DNA from: Arcobacter aquimarinus
Lineage (GTDB): Bacteria; Campylobacterota; Campylobacteria; Campylobacterales; Arcobacteraceae
Length of the DNA stretch: 64,000 nt
Reading direction: 5' to 3'
NCBI RefSeq assembly: GCF_013177635.1
Contig: NZ_CP030944.1
Coordinates: 2,418,001-2,482,000, forward strand
In this document: positions 1-7,758 of the stretch, in pieces
How the letters are laid out: every line of letters starts with the position of its first letter
Numbering within the stretch: the stretch's first letter is position 1
Notes under the pieces: model-generated
The model's database searches: none
Told to the model about the DNA's origin: nothing
Seen by the model: the letters and a program-made list of their open reading frames with translations, nothing else
Translations under genes and position numbers: made by a program

Positions 1-1160
1 ACTGCTGCTTTTTTACCCGATTTATATTTCCCTCTTTCAAATATATTTGAAAAAGTACTTCCTGGTAATTGATGTGTTTTTTTCATAAAAGTACCGATAA
101 CACGCTCGACTGCCCCACCAAATTCAGGACGTGCAACTGGACGATAGATATCTTCTATACCAAATTCACTACAAAAACCATGTAAACTTATTGACCTAAA
201 ATCTTTTCCATTGTCCATATGAATTTTGCGAGGCAATCCATATACAGGCCATTCTCCTGTAATACCATGTTGATTCAGAAAATCATCTTTTGGTAATACT
301 GCATTTAAAAAACATTGCCCTACACTAAAATAGCTTGGTGCATTTAATGAAATATAAAATCCATAAATCATTCTACTATACATATCAATAGCAACAGTGA
401 TAAATGGTCTTCCTATTTCTTCTCTTGTTTCCTCATCAACTAAAATTACATCAACTTTAGTATGATCAATTTGTATAATATCTAGAGGTAGTTTTACTTC
501 AGGAAATTTCCCAGGCATTCCTCTAGTTTCTCTTACACTAAGATTTTTTCTATGTTTTGCAATTAATTTAGGATTAATGTTATTAAGCCGATTCCTTATA
601 GCTCCTCTTTTAGGAATCTGAACATTAAATTTTTTACATTCATTTGCAATTACATTATAAATATTTGAAAATGGCAATTGCTGGTCATCTAAATAAACTT
701 CATTGATTATTGTATTTATAATTGCCTCTGTTTCTTGAGGAAATCTAGATTTTCCTTTACCTCCACAATTTTCTCTATTTCCAGCTAAGGAACTAACTGT
801 GCCAAACTTCTCAAAAGTTTCAATCCATCTATAAAGAGTTGCCATACCTTTTTTAAATTTTTTAGCTCGTTTTTCTACATCTTTAGCTGTTCTCTTCTCC
901 ATTTCAAGTAAAGGTTTAATTATTTCATACTTTTCATTTGCTTTATCTAGAGCTTTATCTCCATATTCAACTTGTGATTTTTCAGGTTCATTTGCATTTT
1001 TAGAATTTTTTATTAAATCATTTACTTTTACAATTATTTCTTCATAGGGACTAATACTCTTTTTTAATAAAACTTTATCAGCAGAAGGATAACTTTTTAT
1101 AATATATTCATTATCTTCATAAAATATTTTTGAGTTTATATTAAATTTAATTACTCCCAT
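1..1160 (-). CDS. tnsB: Tn7-like transposase TnsB (3' end beyond window)
   Basis: This is the integrase-type (DDE) transposase subunit that cuts and joins the 3' ends in Tn7-like transposition. Reading from an ATG at 1160, 386 codons are visible and the C-terminus runs off the left edge. An N-terminal helix-turn-helix-like part (residues about 60-200) precedes the rve/DDE core. The catalytic residues I can place are Asp232 (in IQIDHTKVD), Asp316 (in HMDNGKDF) and Glu352 (in GGAVERVIG), a DD(35)E arrangement, so the visible catalytic core looks intact. The start overlaps the end of tnsA by 14 nt, the usual tnsA-tnsB coupling. tnsC and any targeting genes would lie beyond the left edge. Confidence 0.93.
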   Translation of the reverse strand, partial: MGVIKFNINSKIFYEDNEYIIKSYPSADKVLLKKSISPYEEIIVKVNDLIKNSKNANEPEKSQVEYGDKALDKANEKYEIIKPLLEMEKRTAKDVEKRAKKFKKGMATLYRWIETFEKFGTVSSLAGNRENCGGKGKSRFPQETEAIINTIINEVYLDDQQLPFSNIYNVIANECKKFNVQIPKRGAIRNRLNNINPKLIAKHRKNLSVRETRGMPGKFPEVKLPLDIIQIDHTKVDVILVDEETREEIGRPFITVAIDMYSRMIYGFYISLNAPSYFSVGQCFLNAVLPKDDFLNQHGITGEWPVYGLPRKIHMDNGKDFRSISLHGFCSEFGIEDIYRPVARPEFGGAVERVIGTFMKKTHQLPGSTFSNIFERGKYKSGKKAA

Positions 1161-1818
1161 TATTTTTCTCCACAATAGATTTCATCGTGACTTTTTCATT
1201 TTCTAAATCAGTTTTTAAAATATTTTGAGCCACAAGTTTCCAAATATTATTTGAAACTATTTGATACTCACTTTGAGATTTCATAATTAAATTCGCAATT
1301 TCAAGTGCTGTCATTTTTTTGTCTTTTAAGACATCTAATATAATATCATCATACTTATCTTCAGAAGGATGAAGAATAAATCTGTACAAAAAATCAATAT
1401 TTGATATATAAATTTCATTAAAATTTAGTTCTGTTAGAAATTTAAAATCTACACCTATTTCATCAGATCTTATTTTTGCAGCATTAAATTTCTTTTCATA
1501 AATATCTTTATTTTTTTCAAATTCACTTAAGTATTTAACTTCAATAAGTGCATCTTTTAGATTTGATTTTTTACATCTTTTAACAAAACAATCTAGGTCA
1601 TACTTTTGTGGTTTACCATTTTTAATTATCATAATTCTTGGTTGTTCTCGGTAAGTTTCTACAGTATTATCAAATTCTAAAGAAAGGAAAAGTGTTTTTT
1701 CAAGTGAAGAGTCAAACCCAATAGATCTATTGTTTTTAACACTTGGGAAATGTCCCGTTACAGAACGATAGCTTTTTTTAATTTGTCTTTGTCCAAAAGT
1801 TATTGCATCATCATACAT
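1147..1818 (-). CDS. tnsA: Tn7-like endonuclease TnsA
   Basis: TnsA cuts the 5' ends of the transposon and works as a heteromeric transposase with TnsB. The 223-residue protein has a PD-(D/E)XK-like core: Glu40 (in SSLEKTLF), Asp76 (in YDLDCF), and Glu93/Lys95 (in LIEVKYL), matching the E-D-K pattern known for Tn7 TnsA. A helical C-terminal half (from about residue 130) corresponds to the TnsC-interacting domain of the family. It is immediately upstream of tnsB and overlaps it. In classical Tn7 the right transposon end lies just upstream of tnsA; here no obvious TGT/ACA terminus is visible between 1819 and 1972, so the end may be further right. Confidence 0.92.
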   Translation of the reverse strand: MYDDAITFGQRQIKKSYRSVTGHFPSVKNNRSIGFDSSLEKTLFLSLEFDNTVETYREQPRIMIIKNGKPQKYDLDCFVKRCKKSNLKDALIEVKYLSEFEKNKDIYEKKFNAAKIRSDEIGVDFKFLTELNFNEIYISNIDFLYRFILHPSEDKYDDIILDVLKDKKMTALEIANLIMKSQSEYQIVSNNIWKLVAQNILKTDLENEKVTMKSIVEKNNGSN

Positions 1819-1972
1819 AATTTATCCAAAGTAATTTTAATAAATTATAGTATAAATATTCTTTTATTAAAATATTAAAATTTTTCTTCGTATTATTAAT
1901 ATTTAATATGATTATATATCATTAATTTAAATTTAGCTATTATAATTGAAATTAAATATTGGTTAAAAAAAT

Positions 1973-4000
1973 ATGCATATTCAATCAACATTCATTCATT
2001 TAGATAAAATAGGAAAAAAATCAGAGAAAGAATTATGGGATAAAAATATTTTATCTTGGGAAGAATATCAAAACTACTATGAAAAAGATAACCTTTTCTT
2101 TGATTTTAAATCATCAAAGCTTTATGAATCTATAAATGCATATAATACTAGAGATATACAGTTTTTTACTAATGGACTACCAAATAATGAATACTACAGA
2201 TTAGCACTTTCTTTTCCTGAAGATGTAATTTTTTTAGATATTGAAACTACAGGCTTAAGTCATTACTATGACCACATTACAATGATTGGATGGAGTATTG
2301 GTGATGAATACAATTATTATGTAAATGGGATTTCAGATAAAGAAAAATTTAAAAACGATATGCTAAAAGCTAAAATCATTGTAACATTTAATGGTTCTAT
2401 GTTTGATATACCATTTATAAAAAAAGAATTTCCACATATTAATATCCCAAAATGCCATATTGATTTAAGATTTTTTTCCAAAAGAGTTGGACTATCAGGT
2501 GGTCAAAAGAAAATTGAAGATGAAATAAACTTTAAAAGGAATAAATCATTAAAAAATACAGATGGATATATGGCTACAATTTTATGGGATATGTATAAAT
2601 GGGGGAATAAACCCTCTCTAGAGAAGCTTATAGCTTACAATCATTCTGATATTGAAGGAATGAAAGCAATACTTGATTATTCAATTAAAGAAATTCATAA
2701 AAATTCTATTCTAAAAAAATATTTTAAAATACCATATAAATTTACAAGTAAAAAATCAAAATTAAAAAAACTAGAAATAAAAGAGTTTGTTAAAAATAAT
2801 AAAATACCATTTGACCCTAAATCAACATTAAAATATAATGAACTTTCATCAAGAATAAATAGAAATATAAAAATTGTAGGTATTGATTTAACAGGTAGTG
2901 AAGAAAGACTTACAGGTGTATGTTTAATGGATAACAATAATATAGAAACTATGCAAATAGGGACAGATAAAGATATGATTGAATGTATCTTAAAATTTAA
3001 ACCAGATTTAGTTTCAATAGATTCACCTCTATCATTACCCATTGGTAGAATTTCTGTATTTGATGATGATCCAGGAAGAGATGAATTTGGTATTTTAAGA
3101 GTTTGTGAACGTGTTTTAAAAAAAAGAGGAGTAAATGCCTATCCTACTTTATTACCAAGTATGCAAAAACTGACAAAAAGGGGAATAGAACTAGCTGATA
3201 AACTTAGAAAATTGGGTTTTCCTACAATAGAAAGTTATCCTGGTGTCGTTCAGGATATTATAGGATTGCCTAGAAAACAAGTTAGCCTTGATTTATTAAA
3301 AAAAGGATTAGGTAAGTTTGGTCTAAAAGGTGAATTTCTAAAAAAAGAAGTTAGTCATGATGAAATTGATGCAATTACTTCAGCAATAGTTGGGATGTTT
3401 TTTTTAAGTGGAGATTATGAAGGTATAGGTGATTTAAAAGAAAACTTAATGATTATTCCAAACTTAAAAGCCAAAAATAATCCCAGAAAAATTTTTGGAA
3501 TTGGTGGACAAATAGCTTCTGGTAAAACAACAGCTGCAGAAATATTAAAAGATAAGGGATATGAATATACTCGATATAGTCAAATACTCAAAGACATACT
3601 TAAAGAAAAAGGTGAAATAGTAAATAGAGATAATCTTCAAGCCCTTGGTTTAGAAATGAGTAAAAAGCAAACAGAGTTTTCAAAAAAACTTTTTGAAACT
3701 ATAAAAGACTTCAATTATGTTGTAATCGATGGCTTAAGATATCCTGAAGACTATACATTCTTTTTTGAAATGTACGGTTTTGATTTTAATTTTTTGTTTA
3801 TCGAAGCAGATGATAAATTAAAAGAAGCCAGATATATTTCTTTAGGAAACACAAAAGAAGACTATTTAAAAGCTATTTCAAATGATTCCGAAATAAACAT
3901 ACCTAAGTTAAAGCTTTTATCCAATAATATTATATATAATAATGAATCTATTGAAGTATTGAAAGATAAAGTCTATGAAATAATAGAGGAGCAAAAATAA
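1973..4000 (+). CDS. Triple fusion: YprB-like 3'-5' exonuclease / DUF429 / P-loop nucleotide kinase
   Basis: A 675-residue protein with three recognisable parts. Residues 1-250 resemble the YprB family of RNase H-fold exonucleases: DIETTG (Asp89, Glu91), FDIPF (Asp145) and YNHSD (Asp226) give a DEDD-like set. Residues about 299-480 match DUF429, a predicted RNase H-fold domain, with GIDLTG (Asp305), SIDSPLSLP (Asp350), a CER element, PSMQKLTKRG, SYPG and SHDEIDA. Residues about 505-675 are a small P-loop kinase (GIGGQIASGKTT, later VIDGLRYPED) resembling dephospho-CoA or dNMP kinases. Function is unknown; I infer handling of DNA or nucleotides. It heads a run of four genes and is followed after 1 nt by the PurZ-like gene. 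The Shine-Dalgarno before its ATG is weak, so the start is fairly but not fully certain. Confidence 0.8.
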   Translation: MHIQSTFIHLDKIGKKSEKELWDKNILSWEEYQNYYEKDNLFFDFKSSKLYESINAYNTRDIQFFTNGLPNNEYYRLALSFPEDVIFLDIETTGLSHYYDHITMIGWSIGDEYNYYVNGISDKEKFKNDMLKAKIIVTFNGSMFDIPFIKKEFPHINIPKCHIDLRFFSKRVGLSGGQKKIEDEINFKRNKSLKNTDGYMATILWDMYKWGNKPSLEKLIAYNHSDIEGMKAILDYSIKEIHKNSILKKYFKIPYKFTSKKSKLKKLEIKEFVKNNKIPFDPKSTLKYNELSSRINRNIKIVGIDLTGSEERLTGVCLMDNNNIETMQIGTDKDMIECILKFKPDLVSIDSPLSLPIGRISVFDDDPGRDEFGILRVCERVLKKRGVNAYPTLLPSMQKLTKRGIELADKLRKLGFPTIESYPGVVQDIIGLPRKQVSLDLLKKGLGKFGLKGEFLKKEVSHDEIDAITSAIVGMFFLSGDYEGIGDLKENLMIIPNLKAKNNPRKIFGIGGQIASGKTTAAEILKDKGYEYTRYSQILKDILKEKGEIVNRDNLQALGLEMSKKQTEFSKKLFETIKDFNYVVIDGLRYPEDYTFFFEMYGFDFNFLFIEADDKLKEARYISLGNTKEDYLKAISNDSEINIPKLKLLSNNIIYNNESIEVLKDKVYEIIEEQK

Positions 4001-4001
4001 A

Positions 4002-4967
4002 GTGAGTGTAACAATTGTAGTTGGTGGACAATATGGTGGAGAAGGTAAAGGTAAAGTAACATATTGTATTGCAAAAGAAAAAAATATCAGAATAGCAGTA
4101 AGAGTTGGAGGAACTAATTCTGGCCATACTGTAGTTGATGAAAACAATAATAAGTTTATTTTAAGGCAATTACCAACAACTGCTATTTTACCAAATTCTA
4201 TTTCAGTATTAAGTGCAGGAAGTTATATTGATTTAAATATATTAAAAGAAGAAATAAAATTAACAAAAATTTCTAATGATCAATTACTAATAGATGAAAA
4301 TGCCATGATTATTACAAATGAAGATCTAGAAAATGAAGCTTCTTCAGTATTAAGAAAAGAAATTGGTTCTACATTAAGTGGAACAGGGCAAAGTGTACTT
4401 AGAAGAATACAACGAAATAAGTCAACTAAACTTGCAAAAGATGTTGAAGAATTAAAACCTTTTATAAGCAATACAAAAGAGTTTTTATTTGAAAGAATAA
4501 TTAAAAAAGAAAAAATTATTATTGAAGGTACTCAAGGCTTTGGACTTTCTTTAATACATTCTCCACATTATCCATTCACAACATCTAGGGATACAACAGC
4601 AGCAGGCTTCTTATCAGAGGTTGGATTAAGTCCTTTTGATGTTGAAGATATTATTCTTGTAATAAGAACGTATCCTATTAGAGTTGAAGGTAATTCAGGT
4701 AAATTAGAAAATGAAATTTCTTGGGATGAGTTAGAGCAACTACCTGAATTTACCTCTGTTACAAAAAAAATGCGTAGAATTGCTAAATTTGATTCAAAAA
4801 TTGTTAAGAAGGCAATAATCGCAAATAGACCAACAAATATAGTTCTAAATCATCTTGATTATATAAATGAAGTAGATAGAATTAAATATTTAAAAGAGAT
4901 TGAAGAATCAATTGCACAAAAAGTTAATTATATAGGGTTAGATAATCAATGTATAACGAGCATATAA
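4002..4967 (+). CDS. Short adenylosuccinate-synthetase-like protein, PurZ-like
   Basis: 321 residues, close to archaeal PurA and phage PurZ and well short of the roughly 430 of bacterial PurA. Family motifs are clear: the P-loop at residues 8-18 (GGQYGGEGKGK), GGTNSGHT with the catalytic His42, GSTLSGTGQ, IIEGTQGFGLSL, YPFTTSRDTTA and TSVTKKMRRIAKFD. The residue aligning with the catalytic Asp13 of PurA (normally WGDEGKGK) is Gly13. Loss of that Asp is, as far as I recall, the hallmark separating PurZ (dGMP plus Asp to a succino-2-aminoadenine deoxynucleotide) from PurA. The start is GTG, after a GAGG at about 3988. The 3' end overlaps the next gene by 19 nt. It is probably not the housekeeping purA; the substrate is inferred. 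Confidence 0.82.
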   Translation: MSVTIVVGGQYGGEGKGKVTYCIAKEKNIRIAVRVGGTNSGHTVVDENNNKFILRQLPTTAILPNSISVLSAGSYIDLNILKEEIKLTKISNDQLLIDENAMIITNEDLENEASSVLRKEIGSTLSGTGQSVLRRIQRNKSTKLAKDVEELKPFISNTKEFLFERIIKKEKIIIEGTQGFGLSLIHSPHYPFTTSRDTTAAGFLSEVGLSPFDVEDIILVIRTYPIRVEGNSGKLENEISWDELEQLPEFTSVTKKMRRIAKFDSKIVKKAIIANRPTNIVLNHLDYINEVDRIKYLKEIEESIAQKVNYIGLDNQCITSI

Positions 4968-5935
4968 CTTTACAATATAAAAGTTTATTAGAAGAATTAA
5001 GACCTAATGAGATAAATAAACTTTCTCTTGAAGATCAAAATGATATTGCACAAAATAAATATGATTATTATAAAATTAAAGATCCATATCCTGAAATATC
5101 TCCCGCATTATTAAATCCTTATGATATTGATAAATATATAAATAAAACTGGAATGATTTTTCCTTATGAAAGAGATAATTTAAAAACAGCAACCTACAGA
5201 ATTCCATTATATGGAGATATTCATTATTGGGAGAATAATAGTAGAAAAAAGAAAACTCTTTCTAAAGATAAAAAAGATATATTCATTTTAAAACCTAATG
5301 CAATTATATATATACATATTTCAACAGTCTTTAGAGTTCCATATTATATAGCATTTAGATTTAATTTAAAAATTGATTTAGTACATAAAGGTTTATTATT
5401 AGGAACTGGGCCTGTTGTCGACCCTGGTTTTCAAGGTAGAATTATGATACCTATTCATAATTTAACTGCAAATGAGTATATATTGAGATCTGGAGATGGA
5501 TTAATATGGATAGAATTCACTAAACTAAGTCCATTTAAAGAAGATAAACCTTTTAGTGAATTTAAATCTTTATTAAATCATACAGCAGATGATTATTTTG
5601 AATCAGCAAATAAATTAAGGAGTATTCAAAGTGCAATTCCAAATGCTATGGATAAAGCAAAAGAAGATGCAAAACAAGCTAAAGAAGATGCAGAAGCTGC
5701 ACATAGTGCAGTAAAACTCATCTCATTTGCTACAGTTATTGCAGCTGTAATTGCTATTGGTGGAATTATCTATTCAGGGTATACATTATTAGCAAATGTA
5801 ATAACACCTACTATAAGTTTAGTTGATTCTCAAAAAGAACAGTTATTAAAAAATGAAGATGAAATTAAAAAATTAAATGCTAAATTAAAATTAATTGAGG
5901 AAAAATTAACAAAAGTTAAAAAAAATGAAGAATAG
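4949..5935 (+). CDS. Membrane-anchored dCTP deaminase/dUTPase-fold protein
   Basis: 328 residues. Residues about 60-215 have the trimeric dCTP deaminase/dUTPase fold, best seen in VVDPGFQGRIMIPIHN (about 155-170) and the following ILRSGDGLIWIEF. Where bacterial dCTP deaminases have a catalytic Glu shortly after the PG(F/W)xG motif I read Pro, so classical deamination is doubtful; a dUTPase-like or nucleotide-sensing role is possible. A short Ala/Lys-rich coiled region (about 225-245) leads to one hydrophobic membrane segment (about 249-278, with FATVIAAVIAIGGIIYSG). A Lys/Glu-rich coiled-coil tail follows, and there is no signal peptide. The gene overlaps both neighbours (19 and 11 nt), indicating coupled translation with the PurZ-like and kinase genes. 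Confidence 0.75.
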   Translation: MYNEHITLQYKSLLEELRPNEINKLSLEDQNDIAQNKYDYYKIKDPYPEISPALLNPYDIDKYINKTGMIFPYERDNLKTATYRIPLYGDIHYWENNSRKKKTLSKDKKDIFILKPNAIIYIHISTVFRVPYYIAFRFNLKIDLVHKGLLLGTGPVVDPGFQGRIMIPIHNLTANEYILRSGDGLIWIEFTKLSPFKEDKPFSEFKSLLNHTADDYFESANKLRSIQSAIPNAMDKAKEDAKQAKEDAEAAHSAVKLISFATVIAAVIAIGGIIYSGYTLLANVITPTISLVDSQKEQLLKNEDEIKKLNAKLKLIEEKLTKVKKNEE

Positions 5936-6521
5936 AAGAATTGAAATTTGTGGTGGTATTGCATCAGGTAAAACATCTCTTACAAAATTACTTGAAAATA
6001 ATAATTTAGGAACACCTATATATGAAAATTTTGAAGAAAATCCTTTTTGGAAACCTTTCTATGAAAATCCTGGAAAGTATATTTTTGAAACAGAAATCTC
6101 TTTCACTCTTCAGCATTATCATGAAATAAAAAAATTAAATCAATCTAACTTATTAATATGTGACTATTCTCTTCTTTTAGACCATGCATATGCAATGATA
6201 GGATTAACAGGTAAAAAATTGGAATTATATCTACAACTAATTCAAGAAATATATAATGATATTTCAACACCTGAATTAATCATATATTTAAAATGTAGTG
6301 CAGATGAAGAACTAAATAGAATTAAAAATAGAAATCGATCTGTTGAAACAAATATAGAACTTTCTTTTTTAGAACTTTTAAATAATGCTATTAATAAAGA
6401 TATAAAAAAAGAAAATAAAATATTAACAATTGATAGTGAAAAGTATAATTTTGTAGATAATGAAAATGATAAGAAGCACATTATAAGCTTAATAAAAGAT
6501 GAAATTAATAGTTTATTATAA
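5925..6521 (+). CDS. Deoxynucleoside kinase family protein
   Basis: 198 residues of the dNK family (deoxyadenosine/deoxyguanosine/thymidine-2 type kinases), which phosphorylate deoxynucleosides to dNMPs. Visible are the P-loop GGIASGKTS (residues 10-18), the family stretch ENFEENPFWKPFYENP with the substrate-base Glu, CDYSLLLD where the family usually has DRS, and a lid region LNRIKNRNRS with clustered basic residues. The ATG at 5925 lies inside the last codons of the preceding gene, so it is the distal gene of the four-gene unit. A hairpin at 6700-6729 is the probable terminator. The specificity (dA, dG or other) cannot be read from sequence alone. Confidence 0.82.
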   Translation: MKNRRIEICGGIASGKTSLTKLLENNNLGTPIYENFEENPFWKPFYENPGKYIFETEISFTLQHYHEIKKLNQSNLLICDYSLLLDHAYAMIGLTGKKLELYLQLIQEIYNDISTPELIIYLKCSADEELNRIKNRNRSVETNIELSFLELLNNAINKDIKKENKILTIDSEKYNFVDNENDKKHIISLIKDEINSLL

Positions 6522-6586
6522 AAAATTCAGATAGAAAAACTAGAAAGTATTTTAATTAGTCATTATCAATTTTTAATATATACATT

Positions 6587-6600
6587 AATATGTACATATT
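6587..6600. promoter_or_regulatory. 14-bp perfect palindrome downstream of the nucleotide cassette
   Basis: AATATGTACATATT is a perfect dyad in the spacer between the kinase gene and the convergent thioredoxin gene. It is followed by a possible -10 (TACAAT, 6615-6620) and two small hairpins before the terminator. It could be an operator or a transposon-end element; neither is proven. Confidence 0.35.
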
Positions 6601-6699
6601 TAACTAATTTATAGTACAATCCTTTATTAAGGTAGGTATTAGGAGAAAAACTTATTCTCAAATTTTAATGAATATGACAATGTTCAGCAAAAAACAATA

Positions 6700-6729
6700 A
6701 AAATAACACTTCTTTTGAAGTGTTATTTT
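6700..6729. terminator. Bidirectional intrinsic terminator
   Basis: A 13-bp stem (AAAATAACACTTC / GAAGTGTTATTTT) with a TTTT loop lies between the plus-strand kinase gene and the minus-strand thioredoxin gene. T-rich sequence flanks it on both strands, so it can end transcription from either side. Confidence 0.8.
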
Positions 6730-6735
6730 ATATTT

Positions 6736-7758
6736 TTACTCACCTAAATCTATATTTATTCCTTGTTTCAAAAGTTCATCTTGTCTTACTTTTAAATAAT
6801 CTAAATAACTATTTGGATATTGTTCATAATATTTTCCACTTACATATCTTAATAATTCTTTGAAATGGAAAGGGAATAACAACGCATCAACTGTAGAAAT
6901 AAGTTTCTTATTATCATAAAGTAAAACTCCTGGTCTATAATCTAAATTGATTTTTAAAGCCCATTGTTTTGCTGTTGTTTTGTTACCTTCAACATCAATA
7001 ATCTCTTCATCACTATTAGCATCAAGTCTTACTATTGTAAATTTAGAAAACTCTTCAATTACAGATTTTTCTTTTAATAATCTATTATGAAAATAATCAC
7101 ATTGAGTACAACTTCCATCTTCAAAAATTACTGCTAATGCTGTATTTATCTTCGATAAATCCTTTGTTTTTGTAAACATTTTATTATCTTTTAAAGTATA
7201 AAGCTCTTTTCTCTCAATCTTATTAATATATTCTGTTAATGTCATTTTCTCATAATGTTTACCTTGAACATATTCTAAAATATATTTAAAATCAGTTGGA
7301 TTTCTATATCCATTAACTCTTACAACAACCTCTTTTTCATAATTAAAAAATAAAATTGTAGGACTATATTGAATCTGTAATTTTTCAGCTAGTTCTTTTT
7401 CTGTTAAAGTAATCTCTTCATCCCAAGCGATTTCTCTACTTCCTTTAACATTTATATTAATTACATCAAAATATTTTTTTATAAATTCACTCGTTTTATT
7501 TTCATTTATAAAATTCTCTTTTAACATCTTAGAACAATATGGACAACCTTCTAAATCCATAAAAACCATAAAATGTTTATTATTTTCTTTTGCTTCTTCA
7601 ATATCTTCACTAATATCTAAAAAGCTATCTTTAAACCATTCAGGTGATTCATGCATTGAACCTCCTATAACTTTACCTTCAGTAGCATTCGCTGATATTG
7701 TAAACAATAAAATAATGCTAAAAAATAAAAACATAACTTTTTTAAATGATGCTTTCAT
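6736..7758 (-). CDS. Secreted protein with two thioredoxin-like domains
   Basis: 340 residues with an N-terminal signal peptide (FLFFSIILLFTISANA), so periplasmic. Two thioredoxin-fold units follow in tandem. The first (about 30-175) carries the redox pair in EGCPYCSKM and a cis-Pro context YSPTILFF. The second (about 185-330) carries DGSCTQCDYF and YRPGVLLYD. Each unit resembles SoxW-type thioredoxins, suggesting reduction of periplasmic disulfides or delivery of electrons to a partner; the partner is not encoded nearby. It is transcribed alone and convergent with the nucleotide cassette. Confidence 0.8.
   Translation of the reverse strand: MKASFKKVMFLFFSIILLFTISANATEGKVIGGSMHESPEWFKDSFLDISEDIEEAKENNKHFMVFMDLEGCPYCSKMLKENFINENKTSEFIKKYFDVININVKGSREIAWDEEITLTEKELAEKLQIQYSPTILFFNYEKEVVVRVNGYRNPTDFKYILEYVQGKHYEKMTLTEYINKIERKELYTLKDNKMFTKTKDLSKINTALAVIFEDGSCTQCDYFHNRLLKEKSVIEEFSKFTIVRLDANSDEEIIDVEGNKTTAKQWALKINLDYRPGVLLYDNKKLISTVDALLFPFHFKELLRYVSGKYYEQYPNSYLDYLKVRQDELLKQGINIDLGE

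Follow-up and report, generated by a model that had tools for sequence, protein, structure and literature searches.

A mobile four-gene operon of Arcobacter aquimarinus combines a PurZ-type enzyme with a degenerate dCTP deaminase-fold membrane protein and may be an anti-phage system

In the Kongming defence system (KomABC), dAMP is converted to dITP with the help of a deoxynucleoside monophosphate (dNMP) kinase, and dITP activates KomB-KomC (PMC12948488; PMC12774641). In Clover (CloA, a dGTPase; CloB, linked to a nucleotide signal), an anti-phage protein is likewise controlled by deoxynucleotides (PMC12265719). Phages that carry 2-aminoadenine (Z) encode Z-clusters, in which PurZ comes with DatZ, MazZ and DpoZ or with DutZ and DmtZ. 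Here we describe a cassette of four genes, all on the plus strand (1973-6521), in a 64,000-nucleotide stretch (the window) of the complete 2.52-Mb genome of Arcobacter aquimarinus (Campylobacterales). We propose that it is a mobile anti-phage operon that would use a base-modified (2-aminoadenine-type) deoxynucleotide as an internal alarm sensed by a membrane protein, a reading that we hold at slightly less than even odds (about 0.45).

The four genes are spaced by +1, -19 and -11 nt, as the original prediction had described them (overlapping or 1 nt apart), and because of these distances they fit a single operon. The domain assignments made there were also borne out by hidden Markov model (HMM) searches of the four proteins with Pfam, NCBIfam, PADLOC and phrog models (RNase_H_2, phrog_139, phrog_1211, DCD and dNK matches) and by a DUF429 relative. 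Gene 1 (1973-4000, 675 aa) is a fusion of a DEDD 3′-5′ exonuclease domain (RNase_H_2, 2228-2677; PF13482, 9e-28), a DUF429 domain with a predicted RNase-H fold (2861-3460; PADLOC PDC-S44, 3.7e-5) and a P-loop dNMP-kinase-like domain (GQIASGKTTAAE, 3482-3994; T4-type dNMP kinase phrog_139, 2e-13). Gene 2 (4002-4967, 321 aa, GTG start) encodes a PurZ-type (2-amino)adenylosuccinate synthetase (phage PurZ phrog_1211, 3e-75). Gene 3 (4949-5935, 328 aa; PF22769, 8e-7), our candidate receptor or effector, joins a degenerate DCD/dUTPase-fold domain to a transmembrane (TM) helix and a predicted long helix. Gene 4 (5925-6521, 198 aa; PF01712, 5e-28) is a deoxynucleoside kinase of the dAK/dGK family, with a Mycoplasma deoxyguanosine kinase among its nearest solved relatives. 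PADLOC models left the PurZ-type protein unmatched and matched the products of genes 1, 3 and 4 weakly or partially.

In the mechanism we favour, DNA degradation during infection would raise dGMP, to which the exonuclease of gene 1 and, by phosphorylating deoxyguanosine, the kinase of gene 4 could add. The PurZ-type enzyme would couple dGMP and aspartate to succino-2-amino-dAMP (dSMP), which host PurB may convert to the 2-aminoadenine dNMP, and the product would be phosphorylated by the kinase domain of gene 1 and the host nucleoside diphosphate kinase (NDK). Gene 3 would then bind this product through its degenerate DCD domain, and its membrane part would damage or depolarise the membrane, halting phage spread. 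Kongming, in which dITP arises through a base-modifying enzyme and a dNMP kinase, is a precedent that supports such an alarm. The shared logic would consist of an enzyme that modifies the base of a dNMP, a dNMP kinase, an activator that binds nucleotides, and an effector. However, the cassette has a PurZ and not a deaminase, its own kinase where that of Kongming is supplied by the phage, and a DCD-fold membrane protein in place of the KomB/KomC NADase, and its proposed product is not dITP. Indeed, Pfam and PADLOC searches for KomA, KomB and KomC found no deaminase, SIR2 or related domain in the four proteins.

All four genes were found again, in the same order, in a metagenome-assembled genome from another Campylobacterales family (JAJRSK010000002.1, hereafter G130), where they adjoin a tyrosine-integrase gene. 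The window and G130 proteins are 68% identical over the full length of gene 1, 67% for gene 2 and 66.5% for gene 4, with only 25% for gene 3; within gene 1, identity is highest in DUF429 (85%), followed by the exonuclease (66%) and the kinase (53%). Since the order recurs at 66-68% identity (genes 1, 2 and 4) on a different mobile element in a different family, the linkage of these genes is not due to chance. The original prediction had taken them to act as a unit, and this stands: looked for elsewhere, they occur together in G130, rather than never together or only as single core genes. In another phylum, plasmid pMl2 of Sinorhizobium medicae encodes a PurZ 44-47% identical to those of the cassette, with a gene 3 homologue directly after it, and this pair of PurZ and DCD-TM protein is found on Sinorhizobium plasmids. 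The pMl2 gene 3 product is 35% identical to that of the window (40% in the DCD domain), closer than the 25% of G130. Given this closeness, and the gap between 25% for gene 3 and 66-68% for genes 1, 2 and 4, gene 3 has a history different from that of the enzymes. Effectors of defence systems often have histories apart from those of their partner genes. The divergence of gene 3 beside conserved enzymes is the pattern that would be expected of an exchangeable sensor or effector and, together with the PurZ-paired homologue in Sinorhizobium, it argues for the alarm reading.

The cassette is rare: among 397 sampled Campylobacterota genomes there was no second copy (no further PurZ of the cassette type and no further gene 3), and no further gene 1 was found in a survey of the class or in the family of G130. 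Phylum matches to the gene 1 alignment (A1) were discarded, nearly all being short and covering the kinase part alone, and one (G055) the DUF429 part. A genome-wide pattern scan for gene 1, with patterns limited to the exonuclease domain, returned the G130 contig only. Neither a tblastn search of 50,697 phage records nor viral contigs yielded a relative of gene 1. On one viral contig (L133:4697-5129), a gene 1-type kinase fragment, cut by the contig end, stops 1 nt before a PurZ start and is possibly part of another cassette. In both known copies of gene 1, residues D89, E91 and D145 and the motif Y222xxxD226 are invariant, which we read as a DEDD-type motif; the AlphaFold model of this protein was too poor for use, with a predicted local distance difference test score (pLDDT) of 34. 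The clearest evidence for DUF429 in its middle part comes from a stand-alone protein of Dyadobacter, which matches PF04250 and shares 53% identity. The gene for this Dyadobacter protein lies on a plasmid (L011:3010-6306), directly after genes that encode a diadenylate cyclase, equipped with DACNG/DACNH sensor domains, and a membrane protein resembling holins.

Gene 2 is not the housekeeping adenylosuccinate synthetase, since the host genome encodes a separate full-length PurA. In alignments, the catalytic Asp of PurA is replaced by Gly in the window and G130 proteins (active-site loop GGQYGGEGKGK, 4023-4055) and by Ser in that of Sinorhizobium. Ser occupies this position in 94 of the 94 viral PurZs that carry the motif in our analysis, and a 2026 study reported Ser in all 147 phage PurZs examined and, in four archaeal sequences, Ser or Gly (PMC12884076). 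The base pocket was matched by eye to the solved phage PurZ 7vf6, with positions from the S-2L PurZ list (PMC8342488): N39, T124, Q178 and V228 correspond to N49, T132, Q190 and V241 of S-2L PurZ, and the pocket positions other than that of the catalytic Asp are mostly retained. Maximum-likelihood analysis places the cassette PurZs inside the clade of viral-contig and phage PurZs (99/95; 99/97); the PurA rows lie outside it, on long branches that make the root of the tree uncertain. The nearest viral relative, 53% identical, lies on a 312-kb viral contig (L104:5001-6038) near an RtcB-like gene. We call gene 2 PurZ-type and not PurZ because it scores 251 bits against the NCBIfam PurZ model NF038379, below the cut-off of 300, and the cut-off of PRK04293 was also missed. 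It is likely to perform PurZ-type chemistry on deoxynucleotides, and to this extent the predicted production of modified deoxynucleotides holds; that dGMP would be the substrate and a 2-aminoadenine-type nucleotide the product is our reading of the sequence. The active-site substitution, the retained base-pocket residues and the separate host PurA support the proposed alarm.

A phage-type PurZ is also what would be expected if the operon made or protected modified element DNA as an anti-restriction device, as a relic of the phage Z-DNA pathway, and the original prediction had suggested the marking of element DNA. We found no positive evidence for this. While the cassette shares with phage Z-clusters a PurZ of the same clade and a dUTPase-fold partner (as DutZ with PurZ0), it differs from them in having no polymerase or active dNTP (deoxynucleoside triphosphate) hydrolase, a Gly in place of Ser, a membrane anchor and a location on a bacterial transposon. 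Open reading frames (ORFs) and HMM searches of the cassette revealed neither a Z-polymerase (DpoZ) nor the dATP/dGTP hydrolases MazZ and DatZ; moreover, replication of the integrated element falls to the host, and gene 3 would be left without a role. We give this explanation very little credence. Alternatively, a flood of 2-aminoadenine dNTPs could enter phage DNA and disturb its replication or transcription, with gene 3 as a regulator. PurZ, the two kinases and the exonuclease could supply and recycle the nucleotide, and in E. coli, expressing the Z-cluster of S-2L was toxic and led to Z in the DNA (PMC8342488). However, the Z-clusters of phages additionally eliminate dATP and convert dGTP to dGMP, via DatZ/MazZ or DutZ (PMC12884076), activities for which the cassette has no equivalents, its DCD-fold protein being catalytically degenerate. 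A poisoned substrate would also leave the membrane-anchored, fast-diverging protein unexplained, and we consider it unlikely.

The fold of gene 3 is supported by PF22769 and TIGR02274 matches, and the top 20 Foldseek hits of its AlphaFold model are all dUTPase/DCD structures; the model is poor (pLDDT 46) and was used for fold class only. Alignments of the DCD domain (5123-5524) show that the catalytic positions are lost. Across the three PurZ-linked proteins, the metal-binding Asp of motif 1 is replaced by Arg, Asn or Leu (Arg in the window), the serine pair of motif 2 is lost or displaced (Ser-Ser is lost in the window) and Pro stands in place of the catalytic deaminase Glu in each. The loss of this Glu alone would be compatible with a dUTPase; because the other motifs are lost too, catalysis as either dCTP deaminase or dUTPase is unlikely, and we rejected gene 3 as an active deaminase on these residues. 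The original view of gene 3 as a membrane-anchored dCTP-deaminase/dUTPase-fold protein stands for the fold and the anchor, with the correction that the catalytic residues of these enzymes are missing. With these residues gone, the domain is probably a nucleotide receptor and not a deaminase, in line with the proposed alarm. The dCTP-deaminase model matches nothing else in the host genome. One strong TM segment (residues 257-275; 5717-5773; hydropathy 2.4) is present in the window protein and two in that of G130. A plasmid of Priestia megaterium (L043:5995-6783) encodes a stand-alone DCD-fold relative with two TM helices, Val in place of the catalytic Glu and no PurZ partner nearby.

The state of gene 3 bears on two further explanations. 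PurZ and the exonuclease might drain dGMP/dGTP or other dNTPs and so starve the phage; nucleotide depletion is an established defence, and the PADLOC dCTPase model covers, with its P-loop part, the same stretch as the gene 1 kinase domain (1.5e-9), a likeness to the anti-phage dCTP deaminases. Yet a cytidine-deaminase domain is absent from the cassette, and gene 3 has a DCD domain, which is of another fold and degenerate. The kinases of the cassette would raise dNTPs, and it encodes no dNTPase or HD domain; unlike Clover, it has neither a dNTPase nor a nucleotidyltransferase. Such an attack on dNTP pools is quite improbable, and depletion by a dCTP deaminase, to which the original prediction had pointed, is not supported, given the missing Glu, motif-1 Asp and motif-2 serines. 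Another possibility is that Z or succino nucleotides made by 2-aminoadenine phages are detected by the kinases together with the degenerate DCD domain. The phage-type PurZ is in keeping with this, as is the dUTPase-fold enzyme DutZ that accompanies phage PurZ0 (PMC12884076), and we found DutZ-like neighbours beside viral PurZs. A pure detector, however, would need no PurZ of its own with a distinctive active site, and we regard surveillance of this kind as highly improbable.

The cassette lies within a Tn7-like element of 17,194 bp (genome positions 2407486-2424679) whose right end is at position 6679 of the window. The original prediction had placed it next to tnsAB; the Tn7-like association was correct, but the four genes are inside the element, and their predicted mobility is confirmed both by this and by the integrase beside them in G130. 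To the left of the cassette, on the minus strand, are tnsA (1147-1818; PF08722, 5e-8), tnsB, a DDE transposase subunit extending beyond the left edge of the window (1-1175; ORF L006:17274-19175), a TnsC-like ATPase and a TniQ-like gene; TnsA, the endonuclease subunit, was called by HMM and the remaining tns genes by sequence reading and synteny, in the case of tnsB with G018. The ends of the element are 5′-TGTCAAAAACAC and ...GAATATGACA-3′ (TGTC...GACA). The right terminus (GAATATGACA, plus strand, 6670-6679), of which the reverse complement starts with TGTC, is followed by the 5-bp target-site duplication ATGTT (6680-6684), with its second copy in the last codons of mnmG (genome 2407481-2407485). 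The element thus shows tnsA, tnsB and tnsC with a TniQ-type gene, TGT...ACA ends and a 5-bp duplication, all features of Tn7-like elements. One related genome (G019) has an empty insertion site with flanks about 95-97% identical, and in another (G014) mnmG directly abuts the right flank at this site. A third (G018) carries a sister element at the same site, with tns genes 90% identical in nucleotides and the same right end.

Between tnsA and the right end, the sister element carries a DUF262-type gene (HEC-06/Orf5, 1e-38) and an AAA ATPase. The four genes are hence exchangeable defence-type cargo, which supports the alarm reading and gives the putative defence role of the original prediction its backing in genomic context. 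A non-defensive alternative is a mobile nucleotide-salvage operon of metabolic benefit, every domain being a nucleotide enzyme or fold. Nevertheless, its rarity in the 397 genomes, its location on mobile elements, the restriction-type slot in the sister element and the degenerate membrane-anchored domain all speak against salvage, which is improbable. Each of the five alternatives fails to explain either why the membrane protein is degenerate and changes fast or why Z-cluster partners are missing. Other cargo of the element (L006:9294-14705) comprises an ExoIII-like nuclease, a type II methyltransferase-like gene and a GajB-like UvrD helicase of 1020 aa. The 3′ end of mnmG is a target for this family of Tn7-like elements in the genus (L006:7486-20000 with window 1-6679; L099; L050, L051, L054, L056, L063), and several of these elements share a left-end gene of about 570 aa.

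A second bacterial cassette, in which PurZ is independently fused to a dNMP-kinase-like domain next to a different candidate effector, further supports the alarm reading. On eight plasmids of Rhizobium, Agrobacterium, Sinorhizobium and Methylobacterium (L039, L040, L041, L044, L045, L203, L204 and L205, at about 5400-7700 of each), a gene for a kinase-PurZ fusion (about 535 aa) precedes one for a DUF7002 protein. Close by are an HD protein (deoxyribonucleoside 5′-monophosphate phosphatase, phrog_318, where scanned) and a 452-aa protein, and several of these cassettes lie near AbiE, SIR2 and DUF87 (SIR2-HerA), or AAA and UvrD genes. Like the window operon, the rhizobial cassette combines a PurZ, a dNMP-kinase-like domain and one candidate effector, here on plasmids beside defence genes. 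In contrast to it, its PurZ comes from another phage branch and has a Ser active site, DUF7002 replaces the DCD-TM protein and a divergent HD dNMP phosphatase is present. DUF7002 has no solved relative by sequence; our impression is of an ADP-ribosyltransferase-type fold. In the PurZ tree the rhizobial fusions group with viral kinase-PurZ fusions (97/98), two of which are on viral contigs L144:4470-6053 and L184:4440-6062. On the sequences, the theme of PurZ, kinase and single candidate effector is repeated with different parts. A Rhizobium leguminosarum plasmid cluster (L042:5309-11562; FolE, PurA-like, PurB, QueE, IMPDH and QueC) was set aside as a different pathway, likely of the deazapurine type.

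Several points weigh against an alarm of this kind. Only two genomes are known to carry all four genes, the Sinorhizobium gene 3 protein has a weak TM segment, and PurB and NDK would need to be supplied by the host. The usual ligands of DCD folds are pyrimidine dNTPs, and we know of no role for DUF429. Furthermore, no characterised PurZ with Gly in place of Ser was found in the open-access literature. In that literature we found no description of the four-gene combination or of the rhizobial kinase-PurZ and DUF7002 cassette, and no link between PurZ or adenylosuccinate synthetase and bacterial defence; subscription papers and preprints lay mostly outside this coverage, and an earlier description is possible.

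More broadly, and more tentatively, bacteria may have domesticated phage PurZ at least two times to supply a second messenger of immunity, namely a 2-aminoadenine-type (or succino) deoxynucleotide, which would be read by a dead house-cleaning fold on a membrane effector; we find this conceivable rather than probable. Until now PurZ has been regarded as an enzyme of phages, and marginally of archaea, for rewriting viral DNA. Its occurrence alongside kinases and degenerate nucleotide-binding folds on mobile bacterial operons points to a takeover of the viral pathway by hosts, possibly to produce, after dITP, a further type of immune signal.

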